This document shows positions 9,573 to 14,466 of a stretch of 64,000 nucleotides of DNA, piece by piece. Under the pieces are notes generated by a model, which saw nothing but the letters and a program-made list of their open reading frames with translations, did not search any database and had not been told where the DNA came from. Source of the stretch: an uncultured Pseudacidovorax sp. GTDB taxonomy: Bacteria > Pseudomonadota > Gammaproteobacteria > Burkholderiales > Burkholderiaceae_C. The stretch is taken from contig NZ_CAJYES010000076.1 in assembly GCF_913773995.1 (NCBI RefSeq), positions 36,962 through 100,961 on the forward strand. Direction: 5' to 3'. The first letter of the stretch is position 1. Each line of letters begins with the position of its first letter. The translations under genes and the position numbers were made by a program.

Positions 9573-10051
9573 GGCGAACCCGGATCGACCACGGAGAAGG
9601 GCCGAAGCCCGTCCGTGGCCAGTCGAAGCACCTGCGTCGGCGGACCCTCGCCGCGGATCAGCACCTGCTGCGCGCCGATGATCGGCTCGGGCCCCAGCAG
9701 CAGCGAAGCGACGGGACGGCCGGCCGCATCGAGGGGTTGGGCGCTCACGCCCGCCATCTGCCAACCCTGGGGCAGAGCGCCAGGCGGCACACCATCGAAG
9801 ACGAAACCCTGTTGCGTGACGCGCCAGCGCACCGCGGCGCCGCTGGCGCGGGCCTGGGCGCGTCCGGCTTCGAGCAGGGCGACGAGCCGCTCGGCCTCCC
9901 TGTCCAGGCCGACGCGCGCCGTGTCGCGCAATGCAAAGCCGACGCCAGCGGTCGCGAAGGCGATGATCGCCACCACCACCAGCAGCTCGATCAGCGTGAA
10001 GCCGGCGGCGGTCTGGCGCAGATGGCTACTGCCAGCTGCCGATGTCGGCAT
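9569..10051 (-). CDS. gspH: Type II secretion minor pseudopilin GspH
   Basis: A 160-residue minor pseudopilin with the cleavage site TAAG followed by FTLIELLVVVAII and the GspH domain (LDREAERLVALLEAGRAQA, RWRVTQQGFVF). The ATG at 10051 lies inside the 3' end of gspG, a 26-nt overlap, and the stop overlaps gspI. GspH joins the major pseudopilus shaft to the GspI-J-K tip. Confidence 0.93.
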   Translation of the reverse strand: MPTSAAGSSHLRQTAAGFTLIELLVVVAIIAFATAGVGFALRDTARVGLDREAERLVALLEAGRAQARASGAAVRWRVTQQGFVFDGVPPGALPQGWQMAGVSAQPLDAAGRPVASLLLGPEPIIGAQQVLIRGEGPPTQVLRLATDGLRPFSVVDPGSP

Positions 10052-10469
10052 CGTTGCCCTCGCCCCCGGGCTGGCCGTCGGCGCCTAGCGACAGCACATC
10101 CACCTCGCCCTTGATGCCCGGATTCACGTACTGGTAGGGGCGCCCCCAAGGATCGTTGGGCAGCTTGTCGACATAGGGCTTCCAGTTGGGCGCGGCGGGG
10201 CCGGTGGTGGGGCGCGTGACCAGGGCCTGCAGGCCTTGCTCGCTCGTCGGGTAGCGCTGGTTGTCCAGACGGTACATCTTGAGCGCGTTCATCAGGTTGT
10301 TGACGTCCGTGCGGGCGGCGGTCACTCGCGCGTCGTCGGCGCGGCCGATCACATTGGGAACGATCAGGGCGGCGAGCACGCCGATGATCACCAGCACGAC
10401 CATCAGTTCGATGAGGGTGAAGCCGCGCTGGAGAGGGCTCTGCCGGTTGCGTTGGTAGGAAGCTGTCAT
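10026..10469 (-). CDS. gspG: Type II secretion major pseudopilin GspG
   Basis: The major pseudopilin (147 aa), the building block of the periplasmic pseudopilus. The leader ends LQRG and is followed by FTLIELMVVLVIIGVLAAL. The globular part contains the family signatures LKMYRLDNQRYPTSEQGL and DPWGRPYQYVNPG, and the acidic C-terminal loop (SLGADGQPGGEGNDADIGSW) that binds calcium in GspG proteins. ATG is at 10469. It is the first gene of the minus-strand operon, divergent from gspC with only 25 bp between the two starts. Confidence 0.97.
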   Translation of the reverse strand: MTASYQRNRQSPLQRGFTLIELMVVLVIIGVLAALIVPNVIGRADDARVTAARTDVNNLMNALKMYRLDNQRYPTSEQGLQALVTRPTTGPAAPNWKPYVDKLPNDPWGRPYQYVNPGIKGEVDVLSLGADGQPGGEGNDADIGSWQ

Positions 10470-10494
10470 GGGCGGCGCATGATAATGCCCGCAT

Positions 10495-10980
10495 ATGACG
10501 AGTGCGTTGCCCGTATCTTCCCGATGGCCCGTGTTGGCGACCACTGCCTTGCTCTGGGCAGCTGCTGCTGCAAGCGCGGTGTATTGGGGCCTGCGCCTCG
10601 CAGCGCCGGTCGACAGTGCGCTTGCACCGCCCGTGGCCGTGCCCGCGCTGGGTGTGGACACAGGCGATGTTGCGCGTGCCTTCGGCGCAGTGAAGGTCGC
10701 GGCCAGCGCGCCGATGGCCCCCGACGTTGCCAGCCGCTTCAGGCTGCTGGGGGTGGCGGCGGATCGGGACGGCGGCGGCGTCGCACTCATTGCGGTCGAT
10801 GGCAAGCCACCGCGTTCCTACCGCGCGGGTGCGGCTTTCGATGGCCAGCTCGTGCTGCAGTCCATTGACGCGGCCGGTGCGCACATCGGTCCGGCTGCGG
10901 GCGGGACGGGGTTTCGGTTGACCGTACCGCCGCGGCCCCTTGCCGTGAACGGACCGCCGCGTTCGCTCGTCGAGCCCTGA
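10495..10980 (+). CDS. gspC: Type II secretion protein C (GspC), short form
   Basis: A 161-residue bitopic inner-membrane protein. One membrane helix (VLATTALLWAAAAASAVYWGL, about 13-33) is followed by an Ala/Pro linker and the homology region (ASRFRLLGVAADRDGGGVALIAVDGKPPRSYRAGA), which contacts the secretin in GspC proteins. The C-terminal PDZ or coiled-coil domain found in many GspC proteins is absent; the protein ends in a Pro-rich tail. It is divergent from gspG and convergent with ilvA (12 bp apart, including a CAGGCC/GGCCTG hairpin). A GATAAT box ends 8 nt before the ATG, suggesting a very short or absent leader. Confidence 0.85.
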   Translation: MTSALPVSSRWPVLATTALLWAAAAASAVYWGLRLAAPVDSALAPPVAVPALGVDTGDVARAFGAVKVAASAPMAPDVASRFRLLGVAADRDGGGVALIAVDGKPPRSYRAGAAFDGQLVLQSIDAAGAHIGPAAGGTGFRLTVPPRPLAVNGPPRSLVEP

Positions 10981-10992
10981 CGCGGCAGGCCC

Positions 10993-12549
10993 TCAGGCCT
11001 GAAGGAAGAGTCGATAGGCCGGGTTGGCCGTCTCTTCGATGAAGGGATAGCCCAGTTCCTTCAGGAAGGCCTGGAAGACGCCATCTTCCGCCGCGGGCAC
11101 CTGCAGGCCGACGAGGATGCGTCCGTAGTCGGCGCCCTGGTTGCGGTAGTGGAACAGGCTGATGTTCCAGTTCGGCTTCATCAGGCTCAGGAACTTCAGC
11201 AGCGCGCCGGGCCGCTCCGGAAAGATGAAGCGCAGCAGCCGCTCGTCGCTCGCCAGACCGCTGCGCCCCCCCACCATGTAGCGAACATGCTCCTTCGCGA
11301 GCTCGTCGTGCGTGAGGTCGAGGGCGCCGAATCCGTGGCTGCGGAAGAGCTCCGCGATGCTGGCCGATTCACCGCGCTGCTGCGTCGTCAGGCCAACGAA
11401 AACATGGGCGCGCTGCGCATCGCTGATGCGGTAGTTGAACTCGGTCACGTTGCGCGGGCCGCCAGGCAACTGGCCCACCAGTTCGCAGAAGCGGCGGAAG
11501 CTGCCGCGCTCCTCGGGAATGGTGATCGCGAACAGGGCCTCACGCTCCTCGCCCACCTCGGCCCGCTCTGCCACGAAGCGCAGGCGGTCGAAATTCATGT
11601 TGGCGCCACACAGGATCGCCGCATAGGTTTCGCCGCGCTTTCCGTGCGTCTGCACGTACTGCTTGATCGCTGCAACGGCCAGTGCACCGGCGGGCTCGAC
11701 GATGCTTCGCGTATCGATGAAGATGTCCTTGATGCCGGCGCAGACGGCGTCGGTGTCGACCGTGATGAATTCGTCCACGAGGTCGCTGGCGATGCGAAAG
11801 GTTTCTTCGCCGACCAGCTTGACGGCCGTGCCATCGGAAAACAGCCCGACGTCGGGCAGCGTGATGCGCTCACGGGCCGACACGGACTGCATCATGGCGT
11901 CCGAGTCGTTCATCTGCACGCCGATGACGCGGATGTCGGGCCGCACCGCCTTGATGTAGTTGGCCACGCCCGAGATCAGCCCGCCACCGCCGATGGCAAC
12001 GAACACGGCATCGAGGCGGCCCTGGTGCTGCCGCAGGATCTCCATGGCGATCGTTCCCTGCCCGGCGATCACTTCAGGATCGTCGAATGGATGCACAAAG
12101 GTCAGACCTTCTTGCTCCTGCAGCGTGAGCGCGTGCTGGTAGGCATCTGAGTAGCTGTCGCCATGCAGATGGACTTCGCCGCCTAGGCCGCGCACGGCGT
12201 CGATCTTGAGTTGCGGCGTCGTGACGGGCATGACGATCACCGCCCGCGTCCCCAGCTTGCGCGCGCCCAGGGCAACACCCTGGGCATGGTTACCGGCCGA
12301 CGCGCAGATAACGCCCCGCCCAAGCTGCTCCGCCGTGAGATGCGCCATTTTGTTGTACGCACCGCGCAGCTTGAAGCTGAACACCGGCTGTTGGTCTTCA
12401 CGTTTGAGCAACACCGTATTGCCAACTCTGTCACTCAAACTCCGAGCGGGTTCCAGCGCCGATTCGATGGCCACGTCGTACACACGGGCGGTCAGGATTT
12501 TTTTGAGATAGTCGGCGGGCGTCAGCGCCGGTCCCTGGCTGGTAGGCAT
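10993..12549 (-). CDS. ilvA: Threonine ammonia-lyase, biosynthetic (IlvA)
   Basis: PLP-dependent threonine deaminase (518 aa) making 2-oxobutanoate from L-threonine, the first committed step to isoleucine. Residues 1-320 form the catalytic fold II domain with the PLP lysine in FSFKLRGAYNKM (about K57), the SAGNHAQGVA loop and the glycine-rich phosphate loop GGGGLISGVANYIK. Two ACT-like regulatory domains follow (EEREALFAITIPEERGSF and DERLLRFIFPERPGALL), so isoleucine feedback control is expected. ATG at 12549 gives MPTSQGPALTPADYL; the longer frame to 12633 is less likely. A candidate sRNA lies 248 bp upstream on the same strand. Confidence 0.96.
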   Translation of the reverse strand: MPTSQGPALTPADYLKKILTARVYDVAIESALEPARSLSDRVGNTVLLKREDQQPVFSFKLRGAYNKMAHLTAEQLGRGVICASAGNHAQGVALGARKLGTRAVIVMPVTTPQLKIDAVRGLGGEVHLHGDSYSDAYQHALTLQEQEGLTFVHPFDDPEVIAGQGTIAMEILRQHQGRLDAVFVAIGGGGLISGVANYIKAVRPDIRVIGVQMNDSDAMMQSVSARERITLPDVGLFSDGTAVKLVGEETFRIASDLVDEFITVDTDAVCAGIKDIFIDTRSIVEPAGALAVAAIKQYVQTHGKRGETYAAILCGANMNFDRLRFVAERAEVGEEREALFAITIPEERGSFRRFCELVGQLPGGPRNVTEFNYRISDAQRAHVFVGLTTQQRGESASIAELFRSHGFGALDLTHDELAKEHVRYMVGGRSGLASDERLLRFIFPERPGALLKFLSLMKPNWNISLFHYRNQGADYGRILVGLQVPAAEDGVFQAFLKELGYPFIEETANPAYRLFLQA

Positions 12550-12796
12550 GGCGAAAGGAAGGACCAATGAGAACAGCGTTTGATGATACGCGGCCCCCCT
12601 CTGGCGGCCGGGAAGCGGAGGGCGCACGAACACCGCTGTTCGGCTCGCGTAGAGGCGGCGCGGGACTTCGCTTTTTGGTGCATGACGACACCTTAGAACC
12701 CGGCTCCAAGCGGCTCATCACTTCAATGACAAGGCCGGCGCGATTTCGGTGGTGCGACAAAACCGAATGCAGCGGGGCGCTCCAAGCGCGCCAAAG

Positions 12797-12826
12797 AAAA
12801 AAGCCCCGAGTCTTGCGACTCGGGGC
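12797..12826 (-). terminator. Intrinsic terminator of the candidate sRNA
   Basis: A perfect 10-bp stem (GCCCCGAGTC and its complement) with a TTGC loop, followed on the minus strand by six T residues. No minus-strand protein gene ends just upstream, which is what suggests an RNA gene. Confidence 0.8.
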
Positions 12827-12886
12827 CAAATCCACCAATTGGGAGGGTGGAGGAGACAACTGGGGCATACCCTCGAGTATGCGATG
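12797..12886 (-). ncRNA. Candidate trans-acting sRNA with anti-Shine-Dalgarno loop
   Basis: The stretch 12550-13008 has no protein gene. On its minus strand lies a compact transcription unit: a promoter (TTGCGA, 16 nt, TATACT), then about 90 nt, then a strong intrinsic terminator. Three hairpins can be drawn by eye. The 5' hairpin is GCATAC-TCGAGG-GTATGC (12866-12883). The middle stem is CCAGUUG/CAAUUGG (12857-12863 with 12835-12841, one G-U pair), holding a 15-nt loop UCUCCUCCACCCUCC. The terminator is at the 3' end. A C-rich, UCCUCC-bearing exposed loop is the hallmark of sRNAs that block ribosome-binding sites. No family is recognised. The alternative is an ilvA leader/attenuator, but no Ile/Val/Leu-rich leader peptide is seen. 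The remaining 12550-12796 shows nothing convincing. Confidence 0.6.
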
Positions 12887-12892
12887 GGATAA

Positions 12893-12920
12893 AGTATAGC
12901 AAAGCCATGCTGCATCGCAA
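12893..12920 (-). promoter_or_regulatory. Sigma-70-type promoter for the candidate sRNA
   Basis: Minus strand: -35 TTGCGA (12915-12920), 16-nt spacer, -10 TATACT (12893-12898), predicting a start near 12886. It is among the best promoter matches in the window and points away from osmC, towards the terminator at 12797 and then ilvA. Confidence 0.6.
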
Positions 12921-13008
12921 CAAGTCTGTGATGCGGAATCGCAACATTTCTACAAACGCCCTCTCCTCCGTGAAGTAGTTCACTAAGTTGGGCCAGGAAC
13001 TTTCACAG

Positions 13009-13476
13009 ATGGAATGCACAGTCAGCTGGACCGGTCATGCGGGTACACGCTCTTCCATGGGGTTTGTCGCTGAGACCGGCAGCGGTCATGTCTTGACCAT
13101 GGATGGTGCACCGGACGCCGCACGGCCCGAGAACGGCGGACAGAATCTCGCGCCGCGGCCCATGGAGACCGTCCTGGCAGGGACTGGAGGATGCACCGCC
13201 TACGACGTCGTCATGATCCTTCGCCGAGGGCGTCATCAGGTGGAAGGCTGCAGCGTGCGTCTGACCAGTGAGCGGGCAGAAAAGGATCCCAAGGTCTTCA
13301 CCAAGATCCATATGCACTTCAAGGTGACAGGCCGTGCGATCCCAGAGTTGGCGGTCGAGAGGGCCATCGCGCTGAGTCACGAAACCTACTGCTCCGCCAG
13401 CATCATGTTGGCCAAGACCGCTGAGATCACCACGAGCTATGAGCTTGTGGACAGTGCTCGAACCACTTCAGGCTGA
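13009..13476 (+). CDS. OsmC/YhfA-family peroxide-detoxification protein
   Basis: A 155-residue OsmC-family protein. The two conserved cysteines of the family are visible (GGCTAYDVVMILRR and HETYCSAS). In OsmC/Ohr proteins these reduce organic hydroperoxides; the EVXXXC context and length fit the YhfA-like subgroup better than Ohr. ATG at 13009 gives MECTVSWTG; the upstream TTG at 12988 in the track is less likely. It stands alone on the plus strand, convergent with coq7. Substrate is not predictable. Confidence 0.85.
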   Translation: MECTVSWTGHAGTRSSMGFVAETGSGHVLTMDGAPDAARPENGGQNLAPRPMETVLAGTGGCTAYDVVMILRRGRHQVEGCSVRLTSERAEKDPKVFTKIHMHFKVTGRAIPELAVERAIALSHETYCSASIMLAKTAEITTSYELVDSARTTSG

Positions 13477-13532: not shown

Positions 13533-14168
13533 TCAAATGTGATGGGCGACGGTGGTCATGACCCGCGCCGCGACGTGCATGAGGGCCTTTGCCGGTGCAG
13601 GTAACGGCAGTCCGCCTGCCGCGCTCGCCCAAGCGGCGTGGGCAGCTTCGTCTGCCTTCATGCGGGCGACCACTGCGCGAGAGGCAATGTCGCCGACAGG
13701 CAGGCGACTCAAATGACCATCCAGATGCGCTTCGACCTGCTTTTCGGTTTCTTGGACAAAGCCCAGACTCCATTTGTCACCCAAACGACCGGCGATCATC
13801 CCCAGTGCAAAGGCGCCGCTGTACCAAAGCGGATTCAGCAGTGAAGGCCGAGCGCCGAGCCTGTCCAGGCGGTCACGCGTCCAACTGAGGTGGTCCGTTT
13901 CCTCTTGCGCCGCTCGCAGCAGAGTCTGTTTGAGCGAAGGGTTGCCAGTGGTCGCAGCCTGCGCACAGTAGAGCGCCTGCGCGCAGACCTCACCCACATG
14001 ATTGACGCGCATCAGCGCGCCGGCCTCTTTGCGTTCAGCAGCGGACAAGGGTGCCTCAGAACTTGGCAGGGCCTGGGCGGGTGACGGAGTGCTGGCGCGC
14101 GGGCGTCCCCAGATCGTGCGCAGCGCGCTGTCTAGAGTGCCGAGAAATGCATCGACGGATGAACTCAT
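13533..14168 (-). CDS. coq7: 3-demethoxyubiquinol 3-hydroxylase (Coq7/UbiF-type, di-iron)
   Basis: A 211-residue di-iron hydroxylase for the last ring hydroxylation of ubiquinone synthesis, used instead of the flavoprotein UbiF in many proteobacteria. Visible iron ligands are in [34 protein letters not shown] and KADEAAHA, matching the two E...ExxH repeats of the family. The Ala/Pro-rich N-terminus (about residues 20-45) is normal for betaproteobacterial members. ATG at 14168 gives [10 protein letters not shown]; an in-frame ATG at 14186 is an alternative. It is convergent with the OsmC gene and divergent from the porin. Confidence 0.93.
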
Positions 14169-14466
14169 GCTGGCATTTGAACGCATGCTGTGCGGTGCCA
14201 CCAGTGCTGCATCTTTCCGTAATGTGAAAACCATGCGGCTCGGCACCGAGGTTGAGCGTGCCCTGGTCTTGTTGTACTACTGCAACGAAACGCGGAGCCC
14301 CCTTCAGATTTGGCCCGATTTGCTTTGCCGTGATGCCGGGCGTCTGGTGCAATAGCGACAACTTCCCAAAAGGAGGTTGGCCCGGGGCCCGGCGGGAGCA
14401 CAGCATGTGCCAGCGCGGTGAACCCTTCGCACCGGCGCCCTATGTTTAACCTTGGAGAAACTTGCA

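Follow-up and report, generated by a model that had tools for sequence, protein, structure and literature searches.

A small RNA of the catalogued family RF02278 in Pseudacidovorax under a predicted PhaR operator: a probable link between polyhydroxybutyrate storage and repression of carbon uptake

Introduction

The Rfam family RF02278 (Betaproteobacteria toxic small RNA) owes its label to growth inhibition when overexpressed in E. coli; S17S of B. pertussis is non-toxic in E. coli. The 'double-hairpin RNAs' ncS03/05/27/62 of Burkholderia cenocepacia, and bdhR1, have a CU-rich single strand, a second hairpin and a terminator, and members of the family are predicted to target the ribosome-binding sites of transport and catabolic genes (PMC5688073, PMC10987360). 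The Burkholderia publications also describe an upstream motif shared by three copies, with its regulator unnamed, and ncS RNAs of the family rise in glucose medium and in starvation. S17 of B. pertussis binds and depends on Hfq, is processed by RNase E, represses a sigma-54 activator gene and probably transporters, and is transcribed from a promoter with a TTGC-type -35 box and a 17-nt spacer (PMC11722255).

Outside this family, the Neisseria siblings NmsRA and NmsRB (RcoF, NgncR_162/163) have three stem-loops with an exposed UC-rich strand between SL1 and SL2, and together repress central carbon metabolism (PMC5362039). In Sinorhizobium meliloti, the sRNA MmgR is negatively controlled by the PhaR orthologue AniA and is tied to polyhydroxybutyrate (PHB) and phasins (PMC8401924). 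Repression of the promoters of R. eutropha phaP1 and of H. seropedicae PhbF involves PhaR/PhbF palindromes, which sit at the -35 box and around the start site (PMC12849132, PMC3206438); PhaR can also activate, as at phaP3 (PMC12849132). Here we describe an sRNA locus of an uncultured Pseudacidovorax sp. within a 64,000-nucleotide stretch of DNA (hereafter the window) that shares traits with each of these systems.

Results

The sRNA is a new member of RF02278

The initial annotation had described a promoter, a minus-strand RNA of about 90 nt, a strong terminator and a UCUCCUCCACCCUCC stretch, and all of these are present (Table 1). The promoter is sigma-70-like, and the transcription start was placed from spacing only. 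The RNA folds at -39.5 kcal/mol compared to a shuffled mean of -25.0 kcal/mol (z -4.84), which is beyond chance since none of the 200 shuffles is as good.

Table 1. Positions of the sRNA unit, its predicted elements and its neighbours in the window
Feature	Position	Strand	Remarks
sRNA transcript, predicted, ~90 nt	12796..12886	minus	5' end by spacing from -10 box; 3' end from terminator
Rfam RF02278 core of sRNA	12858-12796	minus	cmscan 62 bits, cut-off 50
Palindrome TTGTTGCGATGCAGCAT, predicted PhaR operator	12907..12923	minus	overlaps -35 box; 16/17 positions fit YTKNTGCRNYGCANMAR
-35 box TTGCGA of sRNA promoter	12915..12920	minus	16-nt spacer to -10
-10 box TATACT of sRNA promoter	12893..12898	minus	
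5' hairpin GCAUACUCGAGGGUAUGC	12865..12882	minus	MFE and centroid
Seed UUGUCUCCUCC	12849..12859	minus	mostly unpaired as far as UUGUCUCC; complements (GG)AGGAGACAA-type ribosome-binding sites
Second hairpin, stem UCCACC/GGUGGA, CUCC in loop	12831..12851	minus	99.5% of cells paired, 63 sequences
Intrinsic terminator hairpin and U-tract of sRNA	12797..12826	minus	
ilvA	10993..12633	minus	PALP and Thr_dehydrat_C; downstream neighbour, in the Pseudacidovorax family only
OsmC-family gene	12988..13476	plus	PF02566; divergent neighbour, adjoins sRNA in relatives too
coq7	13533..14246	minus	PF03232; conserved neighbour

The RNA had been called undescribed, and this is wrong: an Rfam search gives RF02278, with a full-length match to the model (positions 1-64; 62 bits against a cut-off of 50) that is the only one in the window at a curated score. 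The layout of the family is present, with a first hairpin of the form UCCA../..UGGA, CU-rich sequence before and inside it, and the terminator as the second hairpin. Hence, the sRNA adds a new member to a catalogued family of translation-blocking small RNAs, of which ncS27 and S17 have been studied by experiment. Like the B. cenocepacia double-hairpin RNAs and bdhR1, it combines a CU-rich single strand, a second hairpin and a terminator, and its length is near that of ncS27 (92 nt); unlike the B. cenocepacia RNAs, its inner loop is a genus variant (CUCCCAAUU). It shares with S17 the seed region, the coq7 neighbour and a TTGC-type -35 box (PMC11722255), and with NmsRA/NmsRB the exposed strand between hairpins, and it scores 39.5 bits against the NmsRb family RF02877, below the cut-off of 52.

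RF02278 matches above the cut-off were found in 69 of 101 genomes of the Pseudacidovorax family (14 of 15 in the genus) and in 75 of 200 genomes across the order, where a single genome can have as many as nine. By exact core matches, the window falls near Xenophilus, Variovorax and Pseudacidovorax. Three genomes of one family (G107, G156 and G277) hold eight or nine matches each, some only a few hundred bases apart, and so have large sibling sets.

The conserved stem leaves the seed exposed

We found that the stem UCCACC/GGUGGA is paired in 99.5% of cells across 63 aligned relatives, with 8 double-change (compensatory) cells, and that none of 500 shuffles had as many; in the window sRNA its fold has -39.5 kcal/mol and pair probabilities of 0.74-0.85. 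A different 7-bp stem, CCAGUUG/CAAUUGG, had been drawn in the initial annotation. It can form, but its fold is less stable (-37.6 kcal/mol) and its pair probability is about 0.12. In the alignment of the 63 relatives 62% of its cells are paired, and double changes show no clear excess over shuffles, so it was rejected as a conserved stem. The alignment check that had been proposed for covarying stems and a conserved loop thus turned out well for UCCACC/GGUGGA, which covaries, and for GTCTCCTC, which is invariant in all 63 relatives, and badly for the drawn stem.

As for the 15-nt C-rich loop of that drawing, part of it sits in the conserved stem, and the UUGUCUCC part is largely exposed, with an unpaired probability of 0.79-0.98 in the fold of the window sRNA. 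Hence, with UCCACC/GGUGGA as the conserved stem, UUGUCUCC is an exposed single strand between hairpins, an arrangement also seen in the Neisseria NmsR RNAs (PMC5362039) and in S17 (PMC11722255). The 5' hairpin is real; it occurs in the window and in 7 relatives of the genus despite sequence turnover (mean z -2.5, n = 7), and roughly half of the bacterial family's other genera show a hairpin at this position. Just 5' of the seed, a GCACC stretch recurs in Comamonadaceae loci (L011, L012, L022, L068 and others); by base-pairing with GGUG in the second stem it might give the unprocessed RNA an alternative fold.

The conserved sequence might instead encode a small peptide, a reading we regard as barely credible. 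S17L has a putative ORF of 32 aa that overlaps S17S at its 5' end (PMC11722255), a 145-codon ORF overlaps the sRNA unit in the window, and in some relatives tblastn finds short matches to parts of the overlapping ORFs; these matches, however, span the conserved RNA core only, loop indels between relatives break any frame, and it is pairing rather than codons that is conserved. We found no conserved frame among the ORFs overlapping the sRNA.

The sRNA is kept without ilvA in other families

The order ilvA - sRNA - osmC - coq7 is conserved at nearly all loci of the Pseudacidovorax family. In other families osmC, and often coq7, still lies beside the sRNA, and ilvA is absent from the flanks. S17 of B. 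pertussis adjoins coq7 as well (PMC11722255), which suggests that the two loci are orthologous. Beyond ilvA, the window carries a GspG-like type II secretion pseudopilin (RGFTLIELMVVLVIIGVLAALIVPN; 10026-10805).

These neighbours bear on whether the RNA is a leader or attenuator of ilvA, its terminator being a regulated stop and read-through feeding the gene, which the initial annotation had kept as a secondary possibility. Although ilvA lies downstream on the same strand at all loci of the family examined, its distance varies, published RF02278 members are free sRNAs, and other families have the RNA with osmC or coq7 and without ilvA. The association with ilvA is therefore not constant, and since the sRNA is kept where ilvA is absent, it does not serve ilvA; we rate attenuation as highly improbable, given the synteny outside the family. 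Most likely, then, the RNA is no mRNA leader but an anti-Shine-Dalgarno sRNA that acts in trans and has a promoter and a terminator of its own. This much of the initial annotation stands, namely an anti-Shine-Dalgarno repressor as an independent unit; its claim of novelty, the drawn stem-loop and the secondary possibility of ilvA attenuation fall. Its observation is partly confirmed and its interpretation partly supported, and the PhaR-type operator, the phasin-linked sibling and the conserved target sites described below were beyond its view.

A predicted PhaR operator overlaps the -35 box

The -35 box TTGCGA lies inside the palindrome TTGTTGCGATGCAGCAT, which fits the consensus YTKNTGCRNYGCANMAR deduced for PhaR of R. 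eutropha (PMC12849132) and is nearly the same as the motif TG[N]TGC[N]3GCAA footprinted for Herbaspirillum PhbF (PMC3206438). The palindrome was first spotted in the sRNA loci, and the externally published consensus was then scored on loci of other families, with a site defined by at most 2 mismatches within 200 nt upstream. Among other Burkholderiales families, 21 of 27 loci have such a site (background 5.2%, binomial 2e-22), and in the Pseudacidovorax family 23 of 32 do (background 5.8%); the operator is missing from the sRNA loci of some relatives. Both elements were found at 43 loci, and at 41 of these the left half of the palindrome coincides with the -35 box and a spacer of 16-18 nt separates it from a -10 box of the form TANNNT. 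In one relative (L047), TTGCAT, 17 nt and TACTAT are the boxes published for the S17 promoter. The Pseudacidovorax genome has a gene with the PhaR domain (PF07879, over cut-off), which appears to be split over two contig ends (C224 end, C67 start).

By analogy with phaP1, the position of the operator over the -35 box predicts repression. The phaP1 and PhbF promoters drive protein genes, whereas the one described here drives an sRNA. For the 190-nt, Bvg-associated S17L a repressor has been postulated; for the ~90-nt transcript of the window we propose PhaR as a candidate repressor.

It is conceivable, though we think it unlikely, that this is an ordinary anti-Shine-Dalgarno RNA of RF02278 that represses broadly in growth arrest, that the palindrome belongs to another regulator or to the divergent osmC, and that PHB plays no role. 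Known members act in this way with PHB unmentioned, and the palindrome is symmetric and lies between two divergent genes. However, its spacing to the -10 box of the sRNA is fixed, it persists at loci without osmC nearby (L052, L054, L063, L065), it fits a consensus that was defined independently for PhaR, and the same motif, doubled, precedes a phasin gene that carries a sibling of the sRNA.

Phasin 3' UTRs carry a sibling with the same seed

The genome has a second RF02278-like match, sub-threshold at 34.3 bits, which starts 12 nt past the stop codon of a phasin gene (PF09361, 92.8 bits). The promoter of this gene has one palindrome at -35 and another just after the predicted start, which is the two-palindrome layout described for R. 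eutropha phaP1. Within the genus, all 14 second copies lie 11-71 nt past the stop codon of a phasin-like ORF. Across the family, GUCUCC followed by a terminator occurs within 220 nt of the phasin stop in 25 of 30 genera (background 3%), GUCUCC being nearly always in the form RUUGUCUCCUYGG, and 29 of 30 have a PhaR site upstream of the phasin gene. Outside the family the sibling is found in only 4 of 27.

None of 16 scanned phasin 3' UTR loci reaches the cut-off of any Rfam family, and the element was classed as a related sibling and not as a member of RF02278. For 31 distinct sibling sequences, RNAalifold recovered only the terminator; the varying loop lengths kept it from recovering the inner hairpin. 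Given the seed, the terminator and the fact that RNase E processes S17, we infer that the siblings may be released as separate RNAs. Beside the phasin gene lies a short-chain dehydrogenase gene (L148, G000:C244:8500-13500) whose ribosome-binding site CAAGGAGACAGC is complementary over ~10 nt to the seed of the sibling, and which is a possible local target.

The complement of the seed marks carbon-uptake and catabolic genes

Target statistics were computed on ~1.1 Mb of the genome with 705 predicted genes, start codons being predicted simply. GGAGACA, the complement of the seed, is strongly enriched in ribosome-binding sites: the triplet after GGAG is ACA in 10.3% of these sites compared to 1.04% of GGAG occurrences genome-wide. 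Base-pairing with 16S rRNA does not explain ACA after GGAG, and GGAGACA could be favoured for reasons other than the sRNA.

Genes with GGAGACA or AGGAGAC in their ribosome-binding sites are mostly carbon-uptake and catabolic genes, a bias absent from a 100-gene control set. TctC receptors make up 12 of the 42 predicted targets (Fisher 1.7e-10), a signal that may be inflated by paralogues possibly sharing ribosome-binding sites by descent. The other predicted targets include amino-acid or sugar binding proteins, acyl-CoA ligases, DctA, BoxC, a gentisate-dioxygenase-like protein, glyoxylate carboligase and all three pyruvate dehydrogenase genes. They agree with the published targets of S17 and ncS27, which are transport and catabolic genes repressed through pairing at their ribosome-binding sites.

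As an independent test of target sites, we compared aceE (pyruvate dehydrogenase) across genera and found GGAGAC in 27 of 30 and GGAGACA in 22 of 30, with differing surrounding sequence. Among control genes GGAGAC occurs in 3 of 110 (ilvA 2/30, osmC 1/29, coq7 0/20, phasin 0/31). The initial annotation had proposed a target scan by complementarity at start codons, and its outcome is mixed: the ACA(A) extension is enriched at ribosome-binding sites, and whole-seed duplex energies for the 705 genes rank no better than controls keeping the UCUCCUCC core. Therefore, only the ACAA extension is specific, and the target claims rest on ACA(A) and its conservation.

Discussion

With family membership, structure, operator sequence and geometry, phasin linkage, and the enrichment and conservation of target sites computed, we consider it probable that the locus is an RF02278 ('double-hairpin', ncS27/S17-type) sRNA under a predicted PhaR operator that would exert PHB-linked repression of carbon uptake. 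The sRNA would be transcribed from its own promoter, whose -35 box lies within the operator that we infer PhaR to bind. As PHB granules form, PhaR would be titrated onto them and leave the operator, and derepression would yield the sRNA together with the phasin mRNA, whose 3' UTR carries the sibling of the same seed. Through its exposed UUGUCUCCU seed, each of the two RNAs, the sibling presumably after its release, would then pair with AGGAGACAA-type ribosome-binding sites, probably aided by Hfq. Such pairing would repress translation of carbon-uptake genes (TctC-type binding proteins and others), catabolic genes and pyruvate dehydrogenase genes, and this repression at initiation may serve to damp carbon influx and the supply of acetyl-CoA. 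The rise of ncS RNAs in glucose medium and starvation fits this circuit and does not prove it.

We also lean towards a broader reading, with somewhat less assurance: two sibling anti-Shine-Dalgarno RNAs, one from a PhaR-operated promoter and one from a PhaR-operated phasin 3' UTR, may form a PHB-granule-sensing post-transcriptional regulon that reads the AGGAGACAA code on carbon-uptake and pyruvate dehydrogenase genes in Comamonadaceae, the first sibling extending across Burkholderiales. The sequences suggest a circuit not reported before, by which bacteria with bioplastic granules as a carbon store would throttle carbon intake through both RNAs.

Control of MmgR by AniA/PhaR in Sinorhizobium is the nearest precedent. 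MmgR differs in being another RNA of another bacterial class, in lowering phasin levels rather than carbon uptake and in not residing in a phasin 3' UTR (PMC8401924). NmsRA/NmsRB, which share with the proposed circuit a sibling pair acting on carbon metabolism, differ in that they stand under RelA, target the TCA cycle and have no PHB link (PMC5362039). In the open-access literature searched, we found no link of PhaR or PHB to RF02278, ncS27, S17 or a phasin 3' UTR RNA; three elements appear to be new, namely the predicted PhaR operator, the sibling in the phasin 3' UTR and the conserved sites AGGAGACA.

The predicted operator at the -35 box makes PhaR a directly testable candidate controller of RF02278/ncS27/S17 RNAs and would tie them to carbon storage. 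If the circuit holds, RNA would carry a signal from PHB granules back to carbon uptake and acetyl-CoA formation, and the mRNA of a storage-granule protein would also serve as the precursor of an sRNA. Both are relevant to the production of PHB, a bioplastic, in Burkholderiales.

Perfect PhaR-consensus cores also occur elsewhere in the genome, and most seem to lie within coding sequence, a point against the proposed circuit. One of them (L146, G000:C165:6820-6834) is intergenic, before a hemC-like gene, and marks another possible PhaR-regulated promoter.
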